Shown here: positions 8,061 through 41,792 of the stretch, in pieces
How positions within the stretch are numbered: position 1 is the stretch's first letter
Layout of the letters: each line of letters opens with the position of its first letter
Source: a virus
Reading direction: 5' to 3' (one strand)
Length of the DNA stretch: 41,792 nt
IMG/VR virus record: IMGVR_UViG_3300044846_000832
Coordinates: 1-41,792 of that record
Program-made: the position numbers and the translations under genes
The notes under the pieces: model-generated
Told to the model about the DNA's origin: nothing
What the model saw: the letters and a program-made list of their open reading frames with translations, nothing else
The model's database searches: none

Positions 8061-8279
8061 ATGAAGATCAGGATCCTGCACGACACTGTTGCTGGTGGTC
8101 AGTCGGTCAAGGCCGGCGATGTGGTGGAGGCCTCAGCGGCTGACATTCGCTACCTGGTGGCAGTGCAGAAGGCGGAGCTGGTGACTGAGCCCGAGCCCGC
8201 ACCCGAGCCTCAGGAGGCTCCCAAACGCAAACCCCGCACCAAGGTGACCACCGATGGCGATCTACCAGCAGACGATTGA
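8061..8279 (+). CDS. Small head protein, possibly FI-like
   Basis: A 72-residue protein of unknown function. Residues 1-40 look like a small beta-rich fold (KIRILHDTVAGGQSVKAGDV), followed by a Glu/Pro-rich segment and a basic, then acidic, tail. It lies directly after the capsid gene, where lambda has FI, a small acidic head-maturation protein, but there is no clear sequence match. It overlaps the next gene by 26 bases in another frame. Confidence 0.7.
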   Translation: MKIRILHDTVAGGQSVKAGDVVEASAADIRYLVAVQKAELVTEPEPAPEPQEAPKRKPRTKVTTDGDLPADD

Positions 8280-8643
8280 GAAGCTGCAGCACTTCCCGCT
8301 GCACCCCGTGGCGCAGGAAACTGCCACCTTCACCGGTGCGACCACCAACATCGCCGACCTGCTCGAGTTCGACGGCGAGATCCAGGTGATCCTCGACGCT
8401 GGCGCAGCTGGTGGCTCCGGCACCATGACCGGCAAGATCCAGCACAGCGACACCACCACCGGCGGCGACTTCTCCGATGTCACCGGCGGCGGCTTCACTG
8501 CTGTGGCACAGGCCGCCAGCAAGCAGGTGATCACGCTGAACCGCGATGAGCTGAAGCGTTACATCCGCTTCGTCGGCACCATCGCCTCCAGCGGCACCAC
8601 CACCTACTCCGTGCAGGGCTACGGCCTGAAGAAGTACGGCTGA
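8254..8643 (+). CDS. Small head protein, possible capsid decoration protein
   Basis: A 129-residue protein, mostly beta-prone and rich in Thr and Gly, with no recognised domain. Its position between the capsid and head-tail joining genes, and a pattern of alternating hydrophobic residues ending in YIRFVGTI and YSVQGYG, would suit a capsid-decorating or head-stabilising protein. The function is inferred from position. The stop overlaps the next start (TGATG at 8641-8645). Confidence 0.7.
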   Translation: MAIYQQTIEKLQHFPLHPVAQETATFTGATTNIADLLEFDGEIQVILDAGAAGGSGTMTGKIQHSDTTTGGDFSDVTGGGFTAVAQAASKQVITLNRDELKRYIRFVGTIASSGTTTYSVQGYGLKKYG

Positions 8644-15718: not shown

Positions 15719-18700
15719 CGCGCAAGCTGCTGCCCTACGAGCACGAGCTCATCCAGATCTTGAAGGTCTCAGAGGACGAATACCTCGAGTTTCTGGCGGT
15801 GCAGCACGACTTCACGCGATCGCGTGAGGAGAAGCTGCAGGAACTGCGCGCTGAACCGATCTCGATCATCCTCGCGGTGGTCGGCATCATCCTGCAAGCC
15901 GTCAGCTACCTGCTCGCTCCAAAGCCGGAAATGGAGCAGAAGAACCAGCGGCAGCGTCGTGATCAGGTCTTCGCGCCGCGGTTTGGCTTCAACTCACAGC
16001 AGGAGCTGGCGAAGTACGGCGACCCGGTGAACCTGGTCTACTGCAACGTGGACGACAACCCGACCGGCGGCGTGCGCGTGGCGAGCTCGCTGGTGTGGTC
16101 CGCTGTCCACAGCGAGGGCTCAAGCCAGTTCATGCAGATGCTGGTGGTGATCGGCGCGTCTGAGATCCAGCGCATCGGCCCCGGCCGGATTGCGTTCGGC
16201 CAGACCCCGATCCGCCAGCTGGCAGCCGGCAAGACCTGGGCGTATTTCGGTGCCAACCGGCCGCTGCAATTTTCCGATCTGATCCGCGGTGATCAGAGCG
16301 ACCCGACGCGCATCGGCGAGGCGGCCAGCAGCATCGCCTACCGGCCGACGCTGATCGGCGACAACCATCAGGACGGCTTCAGCCAGGCCTTCTCGCCAAG
16401 CACCATGACGCGGTTCGGTGTCTACGCGCCGATCCCGATCAACGTGGTCTACATCGACCGCGATGAGGACGGCGAGGAGAAGGATGCCCCGCTTGGCGTG
16501 GAGATCGCCGGGCTGGAGAGCTACTGGCCGCTGAACGTGCTCAACGATGCGCGTCCCACGGTCCCGGTCGGGCAGCGCATGACGCTGATCTTCCGCCAGA
16601 TCAACTCAGGCGGCAGCGACACCGCCCGCGCGGCTAGGGAGCTGCGCCGCACGCTCTCGAGCTACGTCGACGCGGCCAGCACCTACAAGCTCGGCAGCGC
16701 GAAGTTCCGCGTGGCGGCACCGATCAAGAACGTGGAGCTGGAAGATGGCGCCATGCGTGTCTCGATGGAGTGCATCGAGGCTGGCATCTGCCCGATCGAG
16801 GACTACAACACCACAGACTTCAAGAAGAACGGCCGCGAAGCACAGCGCGAGATCATCCTGCTGCAGGGTGAAGTTGAAACGCTGAATAATCAGCTGCAAC
16901 GCAATCAACCGATCCTCAAGTCCGGCGTTGGGAATGGCATCATCTCAAAGCTGAGCGAGATCGATTCGATGATCTCTCAAATCGAAAACCTTCGGGATCA
17001 TCGATGGACAGCAGGTGAGCTTGACAGCATCGTTAACGACGATGGCGACATCTTCGACGATCGCATCAATCCGTTTGCACAAAGGGTTCTCAACACTCGC
17101 CAAAGCCGAGACAACGAAAGAAACCAGATCGAAGAATGGCAAGAAGAAATCAGCGCAGAGCGCAAGAAGAACGACACCAGCCAGGCGTTCATTGACAGAA
17201 GAAGGCAGTGGATCAGGGAGGCCAGAGTCCGAATTGCGACGCTGAGTAAGCGCCTGAGGAATCAGCAGTCAAAGCTCGATTGGGCGATTCGAGAGTATGG
17301 CTTTAACACGCCCAAGGGCGGCACCCTGCGTGAAGACCGCAAGGTTCTGCTCAGGCGGCAAAGCCGTTTGCAGAAGGAGATGGCTGAGCTTTACGCAGAC
17401 GCCAACAGCCTCGATCTGAATGCAATGGCGGCGCGTGACGCCAACCTGCGCAGCCAGATCGCAACCAAAAACGACAGAATTAGCTTTTTACAGCGCTACC
17501 TCGAGAACCCCAACAGCTGGAACGACTTCTTCAACACCAAGTGCCTGGTGAAGATGGAGGAGGCCGGCTACGAAACCATCACCGAGTGCCGCGTGGTGGA
17601 TTTCGCGGTGAAGGCCAAGGTGTTCAAGCGCATCCAAGGCCGTGCGCCGAAATATGGCAAGGAGAAGGTTGAGCGGTTTCGCGACAGCGACAACGGCACC
17701 AAGGTGCGCGCGGCCTTCTTCTGGCTGCGCTACCGCCGCACCGGCGCAGAGTGGAGCCGGCTGCCCTACATCTTCGCCGTGCGCCGCGGCGCCGACGTGG
17801 ACAACTTCATGTCACTAAAGTTCGTGGCCGGCGACAACATCGGCAACTGGCAGTTCCGCTTCGATCCGATCGCTGAGCCAGCCGCCGAAATGCAGTTTCA
17901 CGGCTTTGCTGATTTCGCCTACATCGAGAACAGCGGCGACGTGCAGATCATCCCCGGACCGGCTGGCGGCCAGTTCACCTTCCTCGGGAGCGTGCGCGCG
18001 CGGCAAGGCCTGAAGCCACCGATCAACGTCAACCCCTACGAGGTGGACGAGTGGGGGCTGTTCTCCATGCGCTCCGACACCCAGACCAGCTTCAGCTTTG
18101 AAGGTGGTCCCGAGTTCTCGATCAGCGCCGTGACGGAGCAGCGCATCGAGACCTTCAACAACTACCCCAACCTTTACAGCGGCCTGACGCTGCTCGGCTT
18201 CAACGCCTACAGCGGCCAAGGCATCCAGGACCTGCGCTCGCTGTCGGTGTTCACGCTGGAGGGCAAGAAGCTGCGGCGCCTGCGGGATGACGGCACCTAC
18301 CCCTCACAGCCGGATAGCTCCAGCAGCTACGCACCCGACATCTTCCTCGACACGATCCTCGACGGCGAGAACGGCATCGGCCGCTTTGCCAAGATCGGCG
18401 GCGTCGATCTGCAGGCGCTGGCACTGGCCAAGCGCTTCTGCCGTCAGAACCAGCTGTTCATGGATGGCGTGATCGCCGAGCAGGTGCCGTGGCGGCAGTT
18501 CTGGGCGGACGTGGCGCCGTTCTCGCTGCTCGAGCTCGGCCGTGTCGGTGGACGCGAAACGCTGGTGCCGGCGGTGCCCTGCGATGACGCCGGCAACATC
18601 ACCCGGCAGGTCACCATCTCGGCGCTGTTCAACCAGGGCAACATCCTCGAGGACAGCTACCGCGAGGAGTTCCTCGATTTCGGCAGCAGCGTGCAGGACC

Positions 18701-27125: not shown

Positions 27126-27584
27126 ATGGCTGAATCTTACGGCGCTGAGCGCTGGCTGCCCGTTGTCGGGTTTGAAGGTCTCTACGAGGTTTCTGATTAC
27201 GGCCGCGTGCAAAGCGTGGATCGAGTGGTGGCACTGAATAACCACCCGACGCTGAAGCAGCGGACCATGAGGGGACGCCTGCTTTTTCAGAAGACAAACC
27301 TGCCGGCTGGCCGAGGTTACAAACGCAAGCAGGTTGCTTTGTGGAAAGAAAACCGCGAGCACACAATGAACGTTGCACGCCTTGTGGCCGAAGCGTTTCT
27401 GCCTAACCCAGAGATGCTTCCATATGTGCTGCATCTTGACGACGACGCTACAAACAATCGGCTTTCAAACCTGCAGTGGGGAGATGCCGCTGAGAACGTA
27501 AGGCAAGCGGTAGAGCGGCGGCGTTTTCCTGCAGGATCTCACCACCACAACTATCGGCACGGCAGATACGCCAGCAAGGGTTAG
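27126..27584 (+). CDS. NUMOD4-HNH homing-type endonuclease
   Basis: A 152-residue protein. The first 40 residues are a NUMOD4 DNA-binding motif (WLPVVGFEGLYEVSDYGRVQ). An HNH nuclease core follows: VARLVAEAFLPNP, VLHLDDDATNNRLSNLQW and a final EN. Such freestanding endonucleases cut DNA lacking the gene and spread themselves. Its sequence is less GC-rich than its neighbours, consistent with a recent arrival. Its stop overlaps the integrase stop (convergent genes). ATG 27126 gives the standard NUMOD4 beginning. Confidence 0.88.
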   Translation: MAESYGAERWLPVVGFEGLYEVSDYGRVQSVDRVVALNNHPTLKQRTMRGRLLFQKTNLPAGRGYKRKQVALWKENREHTMNVARLVAEAFLPNPEMLPYVLHLDDDATNNRLSNLQWGDAAENVRQAVERRRFPAGSHHHNYRHGRYASKG

Positions 27585-28696
27585 CGGATCAGCGCCGCCA
27601 CCTTCGCGGCCATGCCGGCAGCTGCCTCATCCATCAGGTGCGCGTAGCGCTGCGTGGTCTGCGGGCTGGCGTGGCCGAGGATTGCGCCAACCTGGGGCAG
27701 CGTCAGGTTCGCCTGCGTGATCGCGTAGCTCGCCCAGCTGTGGCGCAGATCGTGGACGCGGAGGTTCTGGATCTTGGCGTCTTCCAGCAGGTCTGCCCAC
27801 ATGTGCCAGTAACCGACCAGATGGCCATCGCCATCGCCGGCGATGATCCACTCGCTGTTCGATCGGGCGCGCAGCTCCTCGAGCACCAGCAGCGCCTGCG
27901 GTGGCAGGTGGATGCGGCGCTCATCACCATTGCCGCCGGTCTTGTGCGCCTCAGGCGGCAGCGTGAGCACGGCGGTGTTCAGGTCCAGCCACTCCCATGG
28001 CGCCGACATGATCTCGTTGATCCGGCAGCCGGTGAGCAGCAGCAGGCGGATCAGCTGCGCGAAGCGCCAGCGGATGCCAGCTTCAGCGAAGTTATCCAGC
28101 GCAGCCAGCAGCCGCTTCAGCTCGGCGCTGGTGAGGTAGCGCTTGCGCTTGCGTTCACGGTTGGACTCGATGCCCTTGCACGGGTTGGTGCCCTGCGGGC
28201 GCAGCTCCCACAGCTCCGCCAAGTTCATCGCCTTGCTGAGCACCTCAAGGCAGCGGTTGGCGCGCACCGGACGAATGTCGCTCTGCTCGTGGAACCACGC
28301 CACCACCTGCCGACGCTCCAGATCGACGATCTTGGTGGTGCCGAAAACAGGCAGCAAGTGCAGCCGCCAGACCAGCTCGTTGTTGGCACGGGTGCCAGCC
28401 CGCAGCTTCGGCCAGTGCCGCTTCTCCACGCGATCGCGCAGCTCCTGCATGGTTGGCGCGTTGCGGTGCTCCTTGCGCGCAGTGGTCGGCGCCAGCCCGC
28501 GGGCGGCATCGGCGAGCAGCTTGCGGGCTTCCTCGCGGGCGGTGGTGACGTTGATCACCTCAGCCCGTCCGATCTTGTGCGTCTGCTGCTTGCCACCCGG
28601 TTCGCGATAGCGGAGATACCAGGTGCGCACCCCCGACTCGAGCACCATGAGCCCGAGGCCGGGCACCTTCCGATCAGCCTGCCATTCCTTCTTCAT
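27581..28696 (-). CDS. int: Tyrosine-type integrase
   Basis: A 371-residue site-specific recombinase for integration and excision. Candidate catalytic residues: Arg about 225 (LTGCRINEI), HDLRHSW about 315-321, LGHASPQTTQRYAHL with the tyrosine about 350. An N-terminal arm-binding domain (VPGLGLMVLESGVRTWYLRY) and a SAM-like core-binding domain precede them. The start at 28696 (MKKEWQ) is preferred because GGAGAGG lies 6 bases upstream; 28708 and 28771 are further in-frame starts. Starting here leaves the ATTCGCGCA arm repeats directly upstream of the gene, where integrase binding could repress its own promoter. Confidence 0.95.
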   Translation of the reverse strand: MKKEWQADRKVPGLGLMVLESGVRTWYLRYREPGGKQQTHKIGRAEVINVTTAREEARKLLADAARGLAPTTARKEHRNAPTMQELRDRVEKRHWPKLRAGTRANNELVWRLHLLPVFGTTKIVDLERRQVVAWFHEQSDIRPVRANRCLEVLSKAMNLAELWELRPQGTNPCKGIESNRERKRKRYLTSAELKRLLAALDNFAEAGIRWRFAQLIRLLLLTGCRINEIMSAPWEWLDLNTAVLTLPPEAHKTGGNGDERRIHLPPQALLVLEELRARSNSEWIIAGDGDGHLVGYWHMWADLLEDAKIQNLRVHDLRHSWASYAITQANLTLPQVGAILGHASPQTTQRYAHLMDEAAAGMAAKVAALIR

Positions 28697-28704
28697 GCCC
28701 CTCT

Positions 28705-28758
28705 CCATTCGCGCACTATTCGCGCAAACTTGCGCGAACCGGGCGGATCTTGCGCGAA
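28705..28758. repeat. P-arm repeats: four TTCGCGCA/TGCGCGAA sites
   Basis: TTCGCGCA at 28708-28715 and 28719-28726 (11-base spacing) and its inverse TGCGCGAA at 28731-28738 and 28751-28758. The first pair lies in a 22-base sequence (28705-28726) repeated exactly at 28955-28976 on the other side of the attP core. These are probably integrase arm-type binding sites, and they cover the integrase promoter region. Confidence 0.7.
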
Positions 28759-28760
28759 CG

Positions 28761-28830
28761 GCCGTGAACACGTCAACCGGAAAAGCAGCGCTGAATCAGA
28801 CGTTTAGTGAACTGCCGTGAACCGCCGTGA
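28761..28830. repeat. Three GCCGTGA repeats between P arm and core
   Basis: GCCGTGA occurs at 28761-28767, 28814-28820 and 28824-28830. The last two are one helical turn apart and end 15 bases before the tRNA-identical core. They differ from the arm repeat and may bind an excisionase or the integrase core-binding domain. Confidence 0.45.
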
Positions 28831-28845
28831 GGGCTCCGGTGCAGC

Positions 28846-28890
28846 CTCATAACCTGAAGGTCGTCAGTTCAAATCTGGCCCCCGCAACCA
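28846..28890 (+). other. attP core: 3' half of an initiator tRNA-fMet gene
   Basis: The bases read as anticodon loop CTCATAA (CAT at 28848-28850), the 3' anticodon stem, variable loop, a T arm with TTCAAAT between GTCAG and CTGGC, the 3' acceptor strand CCCCGCA, A and CCA (28888-28890). The strand CCCCGCA leaves the C1-A72 mismatch typical of bacterial initiator tRNA, so the target is tRNA-fMet rather than elongator Met. The 5' half of a tRNA is absent. This is the classic attP design that restores the host tRNA after insertion. Confidence 0.85.
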
Positions 28891-28895
28891 GAAAG

Positions 28896-28932
28896 GCCCG
28901 CTAGGTCAATGACTTAGCGGGCTTCTTCTTTT
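28896..28932 (+). terminator. Intrinsic terminator next to the attP core
   Basis: A 12-bp stem (28896-28907 with 28911-28922; arms GCCCGCTAGGTC and GACTTAGCGGGC, one G-T pair) with a 3-base loop is followed by TTCTTCTTTT. It lies 5 bases after the CCA of the tRNA fragment. After integration it would end the transcript of the restored host tRNA gene, and it also shields the integrase region. Confidence 0.8.
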
Positions 28933-28954
28933 CTGGATCAGCTGTGCCTCGAGC

Positions 28955-28976
28955 CCATTCGCGCACTATTCGCGCA
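28955..28976. repeat. P'-arm repeat: exact copy of 28705-28726
   Basis: A 22-base direct repeat, 250 bases from its partner, containing TTCGCGCA at 28958-28965 and 28969-28976. With the copies on the other side it brackets the attP core, the expected layout of integrase arm-type sites. Confidence 0.7.
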
Positions 28977-37573: not shown

Positions 37574-37922
37574 TGAGACGCACCTCCAACAGGAAATCCG
37601 ACTGGCTCTGGGCACCAAGCCAGACCTGAGGCTCTACAGGAACAACTGCGGCAGCCTGCCCGATCCCCGCACCGGCCGGCTCGTCACCTTCGGCCTGGCA
37701 CGCGGCTCCGCTGACCTGATCGGCTGGCGCACGCTGGTCGTCACCCCTGAGATGGTCGGCCAGCGCATCGCCGTGTTCACGTCGCTGGAGATCAAGACCG
37801 CCACAGGCCGCCTGTCGCCTGCCCAGACCCACTGGCTCCATGCCGTCCGATCAGCCGGTGGCATCGCTGGCGTGGCGCGGTCTGTTGCAGATGCCGTCGT
37901 CATCGTGCAGGGCAGCCCATAA
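37563..37922 (+). CDS. VRR-NUC domain nuclease
   Basis: A 119-residue PD-(D/E)XK nuclease of the VRR-NUC type. The pattern is E6 with Q9-Q10 at the start, YRNNCGS, GLARGSADLIGW (catalytic Asp), LEIKTATGRLSPAQ (catalytic Glu and Lys) and GVARSVADAV. Standalone phage VRR-NUC proteins act on branched DNA. It would resolve replication or recombination intermediates before packaging. The start overlaps the previous gene (ATG within AAATGGCGGC). Confidence 0.92.
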   Translation: MAASETHLQQEIRLALGTKPDLRLYRNNCGSLPDPRTGRLVTFGLARGSADLIGWRTLVVTPEMVGQRIAVFTSLEIKTATGRLSPAQTHWLHAVRSAGGIAGVARSVADAVVIVQGSP

Positions 37923-37930
37923 TGCACCTG

Positions 37931-37969
37931 CCAAAAAAAGCGGCCGGTGGTGCTCCATACACCCCGGCC
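37931..37969 (-). terminator. Intrinsic terminator reading leftward, upstream of the primase-helicase gene
   Basis: On the minus strand a GC-rich stem (37969-37960 with 37952-37942; one bulge, 7-base loop) is followed by GC and seven Ts (A7 at 37933-37939 on the plus strand). It is a good intrinsic terminator for leftward transcription, although the genes on both sides run rightward. In the rightward direction no T-run follows, so it would be read through. Confidence 0.6.
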
Positions 37970-37995
37970 ACAGTCCACAGCCACTACCTGCAGAC

Positions 37996-40449
37996 ATGAC
38001 AACGTTACAGAAGACGCCTGATTTCAGCGCGATCCGCACCTTCTTCAAGGTGATCGGAAAACCAACCGGCACCGCGCGTCTTCGGGGTTTCTTCCCCAAT
38101 GGTCACCCCGCCAAAGGTGACGATCGCGGCCGCAAGGCGCCACCATCCCGCAAGGCTGTCGAGGAGTGGCAGGCCGAAGGCCGCGGCGTCTATGTCGTCA
38201 TCAACGATGGCGGTGACACCGATGCCGACATCACCGGCTGCCGTGCCTTCTTCTGCGAGTGGGACGATCGCCCGAAGGACTGGCAGCTCAACGCATGGCA
38301 GGAGCTCGGCCTGCCAGAACCCACCATCCAGGTGGACACCGGCGGGAAGTCGATCCACTGCTACTGGGTGCTGAACGACCCCATCAGCCCGCAGCACTGG
38401 CGCATCCTCCAAAAGCGCCTGCTTGATCACGCTGATGCCGATCGCGCGCTCAAGAACCCCTCGCGCGTCATGCGCCTTCCGGGCACCTTCCACGTCAAGG
38501 CCGATGGCACGCTCGGTGAGCTCGCATCGATCGTCACCTGCTCTGAGCGCACCTACAACGTCGAAGACATCGAGGCCTGCCTCCCCGAACCCGAGCAGCC
38601 CGCAACGGCCATCACGGTGTCATCCGTACAACTGCCGGACACCATCAACCTCGAGGAGCTGCTGCCCAAGGAGCTCAGCCAGCTCGCAACGTCAGGTACC
38701 TCCGAAGGCGGCCGCAACAACGACTGCTTCCGCCTTGCAGCTGTCGCATTCGCCATCGATGACGCAGCACGCGCTGCAGGCCTTCTCGTCAGCGGCACAC
38801 CCGAGCAGGTGGTGCTTTCCTTTGCCGCACGCTGCTCGCCACCGCTGCCCGAACGCGAAGCACTCACCTGCCTGCGCAGTGCCGCAGAACAGCCCCGCAC
38901 CGCAGACAAGGGCTGGCCGGATCGCCTGCGCTATCACCTCAACCGCCAGGCACGCCAGCACCGCCAGCAGCAGATCACACCAGCACCATCACCCGATGCG
39001 CCGCTCGCTGAAGTCACAGAGGCGATCAACTTCAACCTGCGCAGCAAGAACTCCGACTGGCTGCCGATGGTCAAGCAAGGCGTCTTCGACAAGATCAACA
39101 GTCGCTGGATCTGCCATGACGACATCCTTCACTTCTGGAGTGGCTGCCACTACCAACCCATCACAGACGATGAGCTCTCACCCCTGATCGCTGCCTTCCT
39201 CGAGCAGCTCCACACCACCGAAGGCAAGGAAGGCGAGTGCATCCACCCATGGGCGCGACCTCGCTACGTGACCGAAGCCCTGGCATGGATGCGCACCAAG
39301 CTCGGCGCATCAGGCGTCAACCCACCGAACGCCATCAACTGCCGCAATGGCGTCGTCAGCTGGACGTGGCAAAACAGCCGCTTCACCCTTCATTTCACGC
39401 CGCACAACCCCGCGGTGCCCTTCACCTACATCACCGACTACGACTACGACCCGCAGGCCAACCCCGAGCACATGTTCCGCCTGCTCGAGGCCGTGGAACC
39501 CACCGATCAGGACACCCTGCAGCGCATCCTCGGCTCTTCGCTTGATCTGACGAAATACCGCGCCACACGCGGCCGCCCCAGAGCCCTGCTCATGATCGGC
39601 TCCGGTTCCAACGGCAAGGACACCATCCGCACCGCACTGCGTGACACGCTCGGCGCTCGCAACTTCTCCTCCTGCACCCTCGCCGACTTCCGCCAGTACG
39701 ACCAGGGCCGCAAGTTCCCCATCGCGCCGCTCCGTGATGCCTCCATCAACTGGAGCTCAGAGAACAGCCAGTTCGTCCACATCGACAGCCTCCAAGCCCT
39801 GAAGGGCGCCATCTCCGGCGAGGAGCTCGCATGGGAGGTGAAAGGAGTCCAAGAGACCACCTTCATTCCGAACTGCCTGTTCGTCTTCAACCTCAACAAG
39901 GAGCCATCGCTCACCGGCGAGCAGGCCGCCATCGAGACCCGCTTCCACGTCTTCCAGTTCCGCCGCACCTACATGGCGGTGCCCACCAGGCCAGAGCACC
40001 TCAAGGCTGACCCGCGCCTCAAGGATGATCCTGAGTTCATCCATCGCCACATCTGCCCCGCCTTCCTCAACTGGCTACTCGAAGGCCTGCAGCTTTCCGT
40101 TGAGCACGGCATCGACTACGAGACCGGACGTGAAGCCATGCGCGCCGTCCGCCGCAAGGGCAGCCACCTCTGGGACTTCTGCGATGAGATCGGCCTCTCA
40201 TGGGATGAGGAGGCAGAGACCCCACTCCTCACCGTCTGGGCGCACCTGTGCCGCTGGTATCAGGAGGAGGGCTTCAAGGATGGCAACGGCCGCTGGGTGA
40301 TCGATCCACCCAACGATCCGACCGTGAAGGCCTCCCGTTTGCTGCTCCAGCGCCTGCTGGTGGTGTTCCCAGAGGTGAAGGCAAAAAAGGATCCGAAGGC
40401 AAGAACCACCACGCTGGTCGGCGTTCGCCTTCCTGCCGCCATCGGCTGA
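37996..40449 (+). CDS. Primase-helicase, RepB-like primase plus P4/D5-type SF3 helicase
   Basis: An 817-residue replication protein. Residues about 1-210 resemble a RepB-type archaeo-eukaryotic primase domain: VYVVINDGGDTDAD, AFFCEWDD, VDTGGKSIHCYWVL, NPSRVMRLPG. A linker with a D5_N-like region follows, and then the SF3 ATPase with Walker A GSGSNGKDT (about 535-543), SINWSSENSQF and an arginine finger region ETRFHVFQF. P4 alpha-type proteins both unwind and prime from their own iteron origin, and a repeat cluster overlaps the end of this gene. The longer frame starting at 37840 would overlap VRR-NUC, so ATG 37996 is chosen. Confidence 0.93.
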   Translation: MTTLQKTPDFSAIRTFFKVIGKPTGTARLRGFFPNGHPAKGDDRGRKAPPSRKAVEEWQAEGRGVYVVINDGGDTDADITGCRAFFCEWDDRPKDWQLNAWQELGLPEPTIQVDTGGKSIHCYWVLNDPISPQHWRILQKRLLDHADADRALKNPSRVMRLPGTFHVKADGTLGELASIVTCSERTYNVEDIEACLPEPEQPATAITVSSVQLPDTINLEELLPKELSQLATSGTSEGGRNNDCFRLAAVAFAIDDAARAAGLLVSGTPEQVVLSFAARCSPPLPEREALTCLRSAAEQPRTADKGWPDRLRYHLNRQARQHRQQQITPAPSPDAPLAEVTEAINFNLRSKNSDWLPMVKQGVFDKINSRWICHDDILHFWSGCHYQPITDDELSPLIAAFLEQLHTTEGKEGECIHPWARPRYVTEALAWMRTKLGASGVNPPNAINCRNGVVSWTWQNSRFTLHFTPHNPAVPFTYITDYDYDPQANPEHMFRLLEAVEPTDQDTLQRILGSSLDLTKYRATRGRPRALLMIGSGSNGKDTIRTALRDTLGARNFSSCTLADFRQYDQGRKFPIAPLRDASINWSSENSQFVHIDSLQALKGAISGEELAWEVKGVQETTFIPNCLFVFNLNKEPSLTGEQAAIETRFHVFQFRRTYMAVPTRPEHLKADPRLKDDPEFIHRHICPAFLNWLLEGLQLSVEHGIDYETGREAMRAVRRKGSHLWDFCDEIGLSWDEEAETPLLTVWAHLCRWYQEEGFKDGNGRWVIDPPNDPTVKASRLLLQRLLVVFPEVKAKKDPKARTTTLVGVRLPAAIG

Positions 40450-40680
40450 CCCCAAAAATCGAAGGCAACTTGCCTTCGATCGAGGGCAGAAGCGAAGGCA
40501 AATCGAAGGCCAAACCCCTTGCAATACCTGCCTGAACCCTAATCCCCCCAGATCACATCACATCACAGGGGTAAGGGGTCACAGATAGGGGAAACGCTAC
40601 GTGTGTAGGGAATGGAGGAAAAATGGGGGGTTTTGCCTTCACCCCCGCCACGACTGGGTTTTTGCCTTCTACTTGCCTTC
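40377..40680. repeat. Cluster of GAAGGCAA iterons; candidate replication origin
   Basis: Eight exact copies of GAAGGCAA occur in about 300 bases. Four are direct (40377-40384, 40395-40402, 40461-40468, 40494-40501) and four inverted as TTGCCTTC (40470-40477, 40633-40640, 40662-40669, 40673-40680). Near copies lie at 40482 and 40505. Two lie inside the primase-helicase gene and the rest in the 273-base gap after it. The direct and inverted groups bracket an unrelated stretch (40514-40630) with ATCAC repeats and G-rich runs. P4-type primase-helicases recognise repeated sites at their origin, so this is the best origin candidate in the genome. Confidence 0.65.
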
Positions 40681-40722
40681 ACCCCCTAGATTTGCTTTCG
40701 TCCGCCACTACCGGATCGACTC

Positions 40723-40994: not shown

Positions 40995-41723
40995 ATGACC
41001 ACCGTCCGCATCGACCTCCAGAGCGACCTGCAACGGCTCTCGAGCCGCGTGGTGCTGCTCACGGACCAGAACCTGCGCTTCGCCACCTCCAAGGCGCTCA
41101 CAGCCACCGCTCGCGCTGCACAGGCTGAGCTCAAGCAGCAGACCCCTCGCTACATCAACCAGCCCACCCGCTGGACGCTCAACGGCACTTACGTGCGCTT
41201 CGCACGGCCGGACACCCTCGAGACCGAGGTGGGCTTCCGCTCCGACCCCCAAGGCCGCGGCAATGCGGCAGGCCGCTACCTGCAGCCGATCGTGAAGGGC
41301 ACCACGCCGAAGCTGAAGGGCGCCGACCTCGCGGCCAGCAAGATTGCCCGTGAAGCGCCCGGCGCTGTGCTGGTGCCAGCCAAGGGCTCAGGCCTCACCA
41401 ACGCAGCAGGCAACGTGTCGCTGAGCAAGTACGCCACGATCCTTGGCCAGGCACGTCAAGGCGGTGGCCAGTACTTCGTCGGGCCGGTCAAGCCGGGCAG
41501 CTCGATCAAGGCCGTGTTCGAGCGCAAGGAGGCCTTCATCAGCCGCAGCTCCACGCTGGAGCGCAGCACCCGGCGGGTGTTCACCATCGACCCCAACCCC
41601 AAGCAGCGGCGGCCGCAGTTCCCCGTGCGCGAGATCCTCACCAAGGCATTCGGGCAGGCATGGCCGGCCGAGGTGCGCAAGGCCTATGAGGCCGAGGTGC
41701 AGCGCAAGCTGGGGAAACGCTGA
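40995..41723 (+). CDS. Tail completion/minor tail protein, gpZ- or HK97 gp10-like
   Basis: A 242-residue basic protein. VRIDLQSDLQRLSSRVVLLT and a helix with LTATARAAQAELKQQ open it; a loop-rich middle follows; the end is FPVREILTKAFGQAW and a helix to KLGKR. The arrangement (amphipathic N-terminal helices, basic loop, C-terminal helix) suits the gpZ/gp10 tail completion family, in which helices surround a basic core. ATG 40995 is used; the frame to 40815 overlaps the preceding gene. In lambda, Z lies between FII and U; here it precedes the terminase genes. The family match is moderate. Confidence 0.55.
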   Translation: MTTVRIDLQSDLQRLSSRVVLLTDQNLRFATSKALTATARAAQAELKQQTPRYINQPTRWTLNGTYVRFARPDTLETEVGFRSDPQGRGNAAGRYLQPIVKGTTPKLKGADLAASKIAREAPGAVLVPAKGSGLTNAAGNVSLSKYATILGQARQGGGQYFVGPVKPGSSIKAVFERKEAFISRSSTLERSTRRVFTIDPNPKQRRPQFPVREILTKAFGQAWPAEVRKAYEAEVQRKLGKR

Positions 41724-41792
41724 GATCCCTTGCAGCGCAGGCGTTCTCAACTGCGACCCATGTTGAGATCACGGCATCGTTATGTCGTCACA
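41668..41792. repeat. Terminal direct repeat, right copy
   Basis: Identical to bases 1-125. Joining the two copies closes the map into a circle. The last gene then runs into the gene-free packaging region and terS, making one continuous rightward late block. Confidence 0.9.

Follow-up and report, generated by a model that had tools for sequence, protein, structure and literature searches.

The DNA analysed here, called the window, comes from a virus of cyanobacteria and is an IMG/VR virus record of 41,792 bases with an exact 125-base terminal repeat (1-125 and 41668-41792), and the record is therefore probably complete, with a circular map of 41,667 bases. Capsid, portal, terminase and tail genes are present in it. 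Towards its right end lies a gene for a primase-helicase, and over the 3' end of that gene an array of short repeats (Table 1).

The start of the primase-helicase gene is uncertain between the ATG codons at 37840 and 37996, the closest relatives aligning from residue 1 or 7 and the distant ones from about residue 42 to 66. The N-terminal half of the protein matches the AEP domain of the cyanophage S-2L PrimPol (6zp9, E 8e-40), and no P4-type primase domain was found in the protein by Pfam at E 0.001, so that the label 'P4-type', which the first-pass annotation had given to the whole enzyme, does not hold for this half. The helicase half scored above the Pfam cut-offs for PF08706 (D5_N) and PF19263 (DUF5906) and weakly matched 7ola, which was deposited as 'DNA primase' (E 0.0034). 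The tail was modelled by AF2 as a winged helix. Foldseek alone found nothing for the tail model in the PDB at E 0.001 or better (best E 0.15), with RFX5 first in its order and African swine fever virus PrimPol second. When the Foldseek candidates were realigned (VIA), RFX5 was the best match (Z 9.4, rmsd 2.3, 75 aligned), DNA-bound RFX1 (RFX1-DBD) gave a Z of 9.0 (rmsd 2.2, 74 aligned), and the African swine fever virus PrimPol tail followed with a Z of 6.6. The P4 origin-binding domain is absent from these VIA matches, an absence that is no evidence of a different fold; the profile comparison with P4 alpha was empty for the tail and gave nothing usable for the helicase half, and a sequence search of the PDB with the tail profile returned three weak matches, all unrelated. 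A model of the whole protein was set aside (mean pLDDT 63, pTM 0.31, helicase region mostly below pLDDT 50). Taken together, the profiles and the tail model suggest that the helicase and the RFX-like winged-helix tail are P4-like in kind, and the succession of AEP, SF3 helicase and C-terminal winged helix is the plan of the pRN1 and BIP-1 proteins.

Exact counting placed eight copies of the octamer GAAGGCAA at 40377-40680, four on each strand, as the first-pass annotation had reported, and also confirmed its observation that two of them lie inside the coding sequence and encode Lys-Ala-Lys and Lys-Ala-Arg. Its four inverted copies are indeed on the minus strand, but the right block holds only three of them, since the copy at 40470 sits in the left block, where it forms with the copy at 40461 a palindromic pair, GAAGGCAA-C-TTGCCTTC. 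A count over the whole window, which had been proposed there as a check, showed that the octamer is not equally frequent elsewhere: the sole copy outside the array is at 39220, within the primase-helicase gene, and there is no second cluster of the same octamer of the kind that P4 has at its distant ori. Dinucleotide shuffles of the window contained a mean of 1.04 copies per 41.8 kb and reached at least 9 copies in 0 of 100 cases, and chance was rejected as an explanation of the array.

Table 1. Positions of the primase-helicase gene and of the repeats at its 3' end in the window
Feature	Position	Strand	Remark
Primase-helicase gene	37840..40449	+	PrimPol AEP, D5_N/SF3 (DUF5906) helicase, winged-helix tail
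C-terminal winged-helix domain, proposed iteron reader	40156..40446	+	AF2 model, mean pLDDT 82
Iteron 1	40377..40384	+	inside gene, wing codons Lys-Ala-Lys
Iteron 2	40395..40402	+	inside gene, wing codons Lys-Ala-Arg
Iteron 3	40461..40468	+	palindromic pair, left arm
Iteron 4	40470..40477	-	palindromic pair, right arm
Iteron 5	40494..40501	+	
Degenerate iteron GAAGGCCA	40505..40512	+	
Middle segment, proposed unwinding region	40514..40632	no strand	least stable 60-mer starts at 40535
Iteron 6, right block	40633..40640	-	
Iteron 7, right block	40662..40669	-	
Iteron 8, right block	40673..40680	-	
Degenerate iteron TTGCTTTC	40692..40699	-	exact TTGCCTTC at the corresponding place in the relative L006

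Elsewhere in the window, six TGCGCGAA repeats (28708-28976) flank a tRNA 3'-end-like segment next to a tyrosine integrase gene (27581-28771, minus strand). Of the 399 genomes sampled from the Prochlorococcus order, 350 have a match to a 70-base tRNA-like query from this place, and the best hits cover the segment at 28846-28890. The region is probably an attP with arm sites, and with such a site beside an integrase the phage is probably temperate. The GAAGGCAA array was itself considered as a set of att arm sites and rejected, the arm sites being another repeat, TGCGCGAA, beside the integrase.

Conservation and layout of the array among relatives

Relatives were gathered by protein from viral contigs, as 45 loci and then as the best 80 of 136, and many contigs are common to both sets. 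The 70 loci (window included) gave 56 distinct proteins, of which 35 were kept at less than 97% identity. Two loci, L063 and L064, each with 9 copies of GGACGCAA, were lost to the motif filter; five others (L007, L104, L106, L110 and L113) were left out of the counts because their sequence stops at the gene end or before it; and in three with broken frames (L019, L021 and L030) arrays were nonetheless seen. In 30 of the 35 dereplicated loci, the window included, an unsupervised search placed the densest octamer cluster of the locus at the stop codon of the primase-helicase gene, and the cluster is thus kept beside homologous primase-helicase genes, a conservation that the first-pass annotation had wished to see checked. 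The clusters at the stop codon have 5 to 12 copies, and Markov shuffles (20 per locus) never gave more than 4. In the five exceptions (L008, L013, L014, L015 and L033) the array found at this position is degenerate or mixed and ranks below another cluster of the locus. In one of these, L013, two clusters with seven copies of GATTCTCA / GAGAATGA-type octamers were observed at +2684 and +6337 from the stop codon, and they are unrelated to the iterons.

The general layout consists of a left block of copies mostly pointing right, a middle, and a right block pointing left, with a palindromic pair often directly past the stop codon. In rows with at least five copies, 79 to 157 bases separate the two blocks, measured between the exact copies closest to each other, and the commonest spacings between successive copies on the same strand are 11, 30, 21 and 41. 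These lie near whole helical turns, as in iteron origins: at 10.5 bp the mean phase is -0.08 bp with an R of 0.71 over 167 spacings. These come from 31 of the 35 rows, which share ancestry, so the spacings are not independent and a nominal probability would overstate the effect. The 60-mer of the middle is among the least stable of its locus, within the lowest 1% in 29 of the 35 loci and within 5% in all 35, and the very least stable 60-mer of the locus lies in the middle in 14 of the 35. In the window, the least stable 60-mer of the middle starts at 40535, with 0.43% of window positions as unstable, and the least stable 60-mer of the entire window, at 16933, is outside the array. It was also observed that G runs like those at 40570-40632 of the window recur in the middle of the arrays of several relatives (GGGGTAAGGGG, ATAGGGG, TATAGGGG).

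Turnover of the octamer and the protein half that it follows

The iteron word is specific to lineages, being GAAGGCAA, GGACGCAA or GGAGGCAA, with mixed arrays in between. When a tree is built from the protein minus its tail, GGACGCAA corresponds to one clade (15 rows) and GAAGGCAA occurs on both sides of the tree. The word of the L031 array is GGAGGCAA, the array of L032 is mixed, with five GAAGGCAA and four GGAGGCAA, and those of L008 and L033 are mixed as well. Between lineages the word changes in all copies of an array together, in concert, which the single genome available to the first-pass annotation could not reveal.

The columns that separate the GAAGGCAA and GGACGCAA classes number 13 of 115 in the tail in comparison to 14 of 697 elsewhere (odds 6.2). 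Among them R/K786 is replaced by A in 15 of 15 GGACGCAA rows. Two control splits likewise enrich the tail, with odds of 1.7 and 4.0 in comparison to 6.2, and for this reason the class-separating tail columns are no more than suggestive as specificity residues, the candidates being 786, 793 and 805. Also suggestive is the clade of L086, which in helix 3 and the wing has an identity of 0.46 to the GAAGGCAA side in comparison to 0.36 and so seems to resemble that side there, while elsewhere it is the sister of the GGACGCAA clade.

Where iterons overlap the gene, the codons carry a trace of them. In the GGACGCAA class a reverse-orientation iteron overlaps the wing codons for L/I/V-A-S, and all 15 loci use NTT-GCG-TCC, with A795 encoded solely by GCG and S796 solely by TCC. 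Among the 208 invariant residues that could use four or more codons, only 3 have a fully fixed codon, A795 and S796 being two of them, and the mean share of the top codon over the 208 comparable residues is 0.56. This comparison points to selection at the DNA level on the in-gene iteron copy of the GGACGCAA class. The same stretch has two forward copies in the window clade (over Lys-Ala-Lys and Lys-Ala-Arg), both of which are found in three rows only, too few for a codon test, and the clades of L009 and L086 have no exact iteron copy inside the gene.

A protein-profile search of 399 sampled genomes of the Prochlorococcus order found relatives in 63, most of them of the N-terminal half only, and six of the 12 returned genome loci (L172-L177) were taken in length. 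Four of the six (L172-L175) match the helicase half, and three of these (L172, L173 and L174) have arrays at the stop codon: five GAAGCCAT, three GAAGGCAT and three GGAGGCAT in L172, eleven GGAGGCAT in L173, and eight GGAGGCAA with one GAAGGCAA in L174. The primase module is a different one in L172 and L173 (PF09250 with PriCT_2), and no primase domain was found in L174 by Pfam. The two loci with N-terminal matches, L176 and L177, have four copies each of other octamers past the stop codon. S-2L-type PrimPol modules are accompanied by the words GTAGGAAC/GTGGGAAC where the helicase is VapE-like (L116) and by AGCCCACA where the partner is DUF3987 (L045). Among the 16 viral or Prochlorococcus relatives that match in the N-terminal part only and include the gene end, the array is evident in eight (L037, L045, L046 and L114-L118) and weak or lacking in eight. 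Since the core GRAGGCA is kept beside the helicase-tail half when the primase is another or missing, and other words stand beside PrimPol modules on other helicases, the comparison argues that the word goes with the helicase/winged-helix half and not with the primase half.

Two further observations were made in these genome loci. No array follows the stop codon of L175, one of the relatives in the helicase half, and eight GGGTCACC are found within its ORF, 473 to 214 bases before the stop (reverse strand of the locus); these could possibly be an origin array that has become wholly coding. A second tight cluster occurs in L172 some 3.6 kb past the stop codon of the primase-helicase gene (on the reverse strand of the locus), where seven AGAACCCA fall within 175 bases.

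Several lineages have iteron copies within the codons for the wing that is predicted to read the DNA, and the reader and its site would therefore be partly the same DNA there. We tentatively propose, while holding it to be rather doubtful, that picocyanobacterial phages and genome-borne elements share a modular specificity cassette, in which the helicase/winged-helix half and the array travel jointly among primase modules and in which, reader and site being partly the same DNA, turnover of the word would alter the reader simultaneously.

A putative replication origin and the alternatives to it

Based on this comparison, the segment 40377-40699 is very probably the replication origin of the phage, recognised by its own initiator through the winged-helix tail. 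This supports the proposal of the first-pass annotation that an iteron origin overlaps the end of a primase-helicase gene and that its bracketed middle is the probable site of melting. Some findings speak against it: in five of the 35 loci another cluster is the densest, GC skew gives little support outside the window, the structure and profile comparisons did not reach the P4 protein, eight of the N-terminal-only relatives have a weak array or none, and L175 lacks one past its stop codon. The tail of the primase-helicase encoded upstream would bind the GAAGGCAA iterons, which form two inward-facing blocks and for the most part share the same face of the helix; the primase-helicase would assemble SF3 helicase rings at the array and melt the segment between the blocks; and its PrimPol half would prime the first strands, to be extended by the primase-helicase or by a host polymerase. 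The conservation, position, phasing and weak middle of the array, the DNA-level selection on the in-gene copy of the GGACGCAA class, and the association of the word with the helicase/winged-helix half, emerge from comparison of relatives, and we infer the protein binding, the melting of the middle, the start of replication at this place and every step after binding.

As for GC skew, whose turning near the array had been another proposed check, its support for the origin is weak in the window and does not hold generally. The detrended curve of the window has its minimum 1.1 kb from the array and its maximum at a distance of 18.8 kb, and 3.8% of possible origins reach this contrast, in comparison to 4.6% for a near-identical phage. 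The outcome is negative or unclear for the other circular genomes, with 10.9% for G022 (doubtful), 37.7% for G014 and 89% for G016. Non-circular records, those lacking end repeats, were left out of account, and among those G002 and G003 agree with an origin at the array and G020 does not.

Four other functions were weighed. The array could be an element like P4 crr, bound by the initiator and needed for replication, with synthesis starting elsewhere in a P4-like division of labour, which we consider unlikely. The crr of P4 is equally placed, its ten annotated octamers lying 45 bases 3' of the alpha stop codon and the P4 ori about 4.5 kb off. Against this, the array of the window has its own weak middle between inward-facing blocks, as the origins of PICIs have (PMC6092414). 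Moreover, P4 ori shares the octamers of crr, whereas here one octamer lies outside the array, and the nine related records that were read through contain no second cluster of the iteron word, with 0 to 5 scattered copies outside the array; because of these nine relatives, our already small probability for this alternative was lowered slightly.

Smaller still, and likewise lowered slightly, is the chance that the array is an operator, serving downstream transcription or autoregulation of the initiator, without origin function. The array does lie between two genes, and dual use is common among iteron initiators. Nevertheless, in 21 of 28 relatives (each with at least 1.2 kb available) the downstream proteins of the window are unmatched in the next 2.6 kb, which argues for an array independent of its downstream neighbours, and the inward blocks, weak middle and helical phasing better fit an initiator complex.

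We judge equally improbable a stem-loop origin like that of pRN1, with the inverted iterons serving as arms of a hairpin and not as binding sites. Against it, most copies of a block repeat in the same direction, spaced by helical turns, and even deeply diverged relatives keep the word. The array folds better than its shuffles (z -3.5), to which the iterons in opposite orientation contribute. According to PMC4234260, pRN1 and phage BIP-1 do have a stem-loop 3' of an AEP-SF3-winged-helix gene, but the pRN1 origin described there is without iterons.

Least likely of all is a packaging (cos/pac) site bound by terminase, since, although the TerL start is about 3.4 kb downstream on the circular map, a TerL of the window type occurs in 5 of 24 related records (some of them fragments) and yet at least five copies of one octamer stand at the primase-helicase end in 21 of these 24, TerL follows the stop codon at 2.3, 3.1 and 7.3 kb in three relatives, and arrays adjoin three elements in bacterial genomes.

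Relation to known systems

The likeness of the putative origin and its initiator to P4 crr and gp-alpha lies in a primase-helicase initiator, octamers in both orientations and an array directly 3' of the gene. The differences are that P4 has crr and a distant ori whereas the window has one array, that the octamer is mostly TGTTCACC in P4 and GAAGGCAA in the window, and that the window enzyme has an AEP PrimPol whereas P4 has its own primase type, of the Zn-ribbon/toprim kind. In PMC10516667, the African swine fever virus PrimPol tail is likened to both the P4 origin-binding domain and Rfx1, which groups that domain with Rfx1, and RFX is the best match of the window tail.

PICI origins are immediately 3' of rep and have two iteron sets flanking an AT-rich region (PMC6092414), and the C-terminal domain of SaPI Rep is the iteron reader (PMC7581432). 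The anatomy of the window is the same, with an array directly 3' of the putative initiator and two iteron sets flanking a segment of predicted weakness, and the C-terminal domain is likewise the proposed reader. The window phage differs in that it has its own capsid, portal and terminase and is not a satellite lacking virion genes, as SaPIs and PICIs are, and in that its initiator has a fused PrimPol. The window system would be of the same working kind as P4 crr/alpha and SaPI/PICI rep-ori, yet it is not a P4 alpha, because its primase is an S-2L-type PrimPol.

With pRN1 ORF904 and BIP-1 the window shares AEP, SF3 helicase, C-terminal winged helix and a proposed origin directly downstream; for this protein class, recognition of a stem-loop has been proposed in PMC4234260, which says that pRN1 lacks iterons, whereas the window array is plainly iteron-like. 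The window case joins the protein plan of pRN1 and BIP-1 with the origin plan of P4 and PICIs.

The likeness to cyanophage S-2L comprises the N-terminal AEP domain (6zp9), similar neighbouring replication genes (annealing protein, PD-(D/E)XK nuclease and SF2 helicase) and, behind the PrimPol gene, a gap of some 360 bp rich in repeats. The C-terminal half of the S-2L PrimPol is different, being VirE-like (PMC8065100), and the repeats of S-2L are other and weaker ones (GTGCCA/GGCAC). In S-2L itself (L121), the gap after PrimPol, at 8263-8621, was observed to be rich in GGCAC/GTGCC repeats around a purine-rich centre, and it is perhaps an unrecognised origin of this 2-aminoadenine phage.

In the literature search, no paper was found on direct repeats downstream of a phage primase, and a cyanophage iteron origin was not found either, the sole match concerning another subject. 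In streptococcal Sfi21-type phages the origin adjoins the primase gene.

With the origin reading, AEP-SF3-winged-helix initiators, earlier proposed to use stem-loops (PMC4234260), would gain an iteron origin, and the PICI-type origin layout would be extended to phages with their own virion genes. The problem that this material addresses is how an initiator and about ten binding sites may change their specificity jointly, and it offers several word lineages, mixed arrays (L008, L032 and L033), one reader half on different primases, and candidate reading residues. If the helicase/winged-helix half and its array do travel as a specificity cassette, the lineages together with the intermediates that have mixed arrays would be a natural record of the switching of specificity between initiator and origin.
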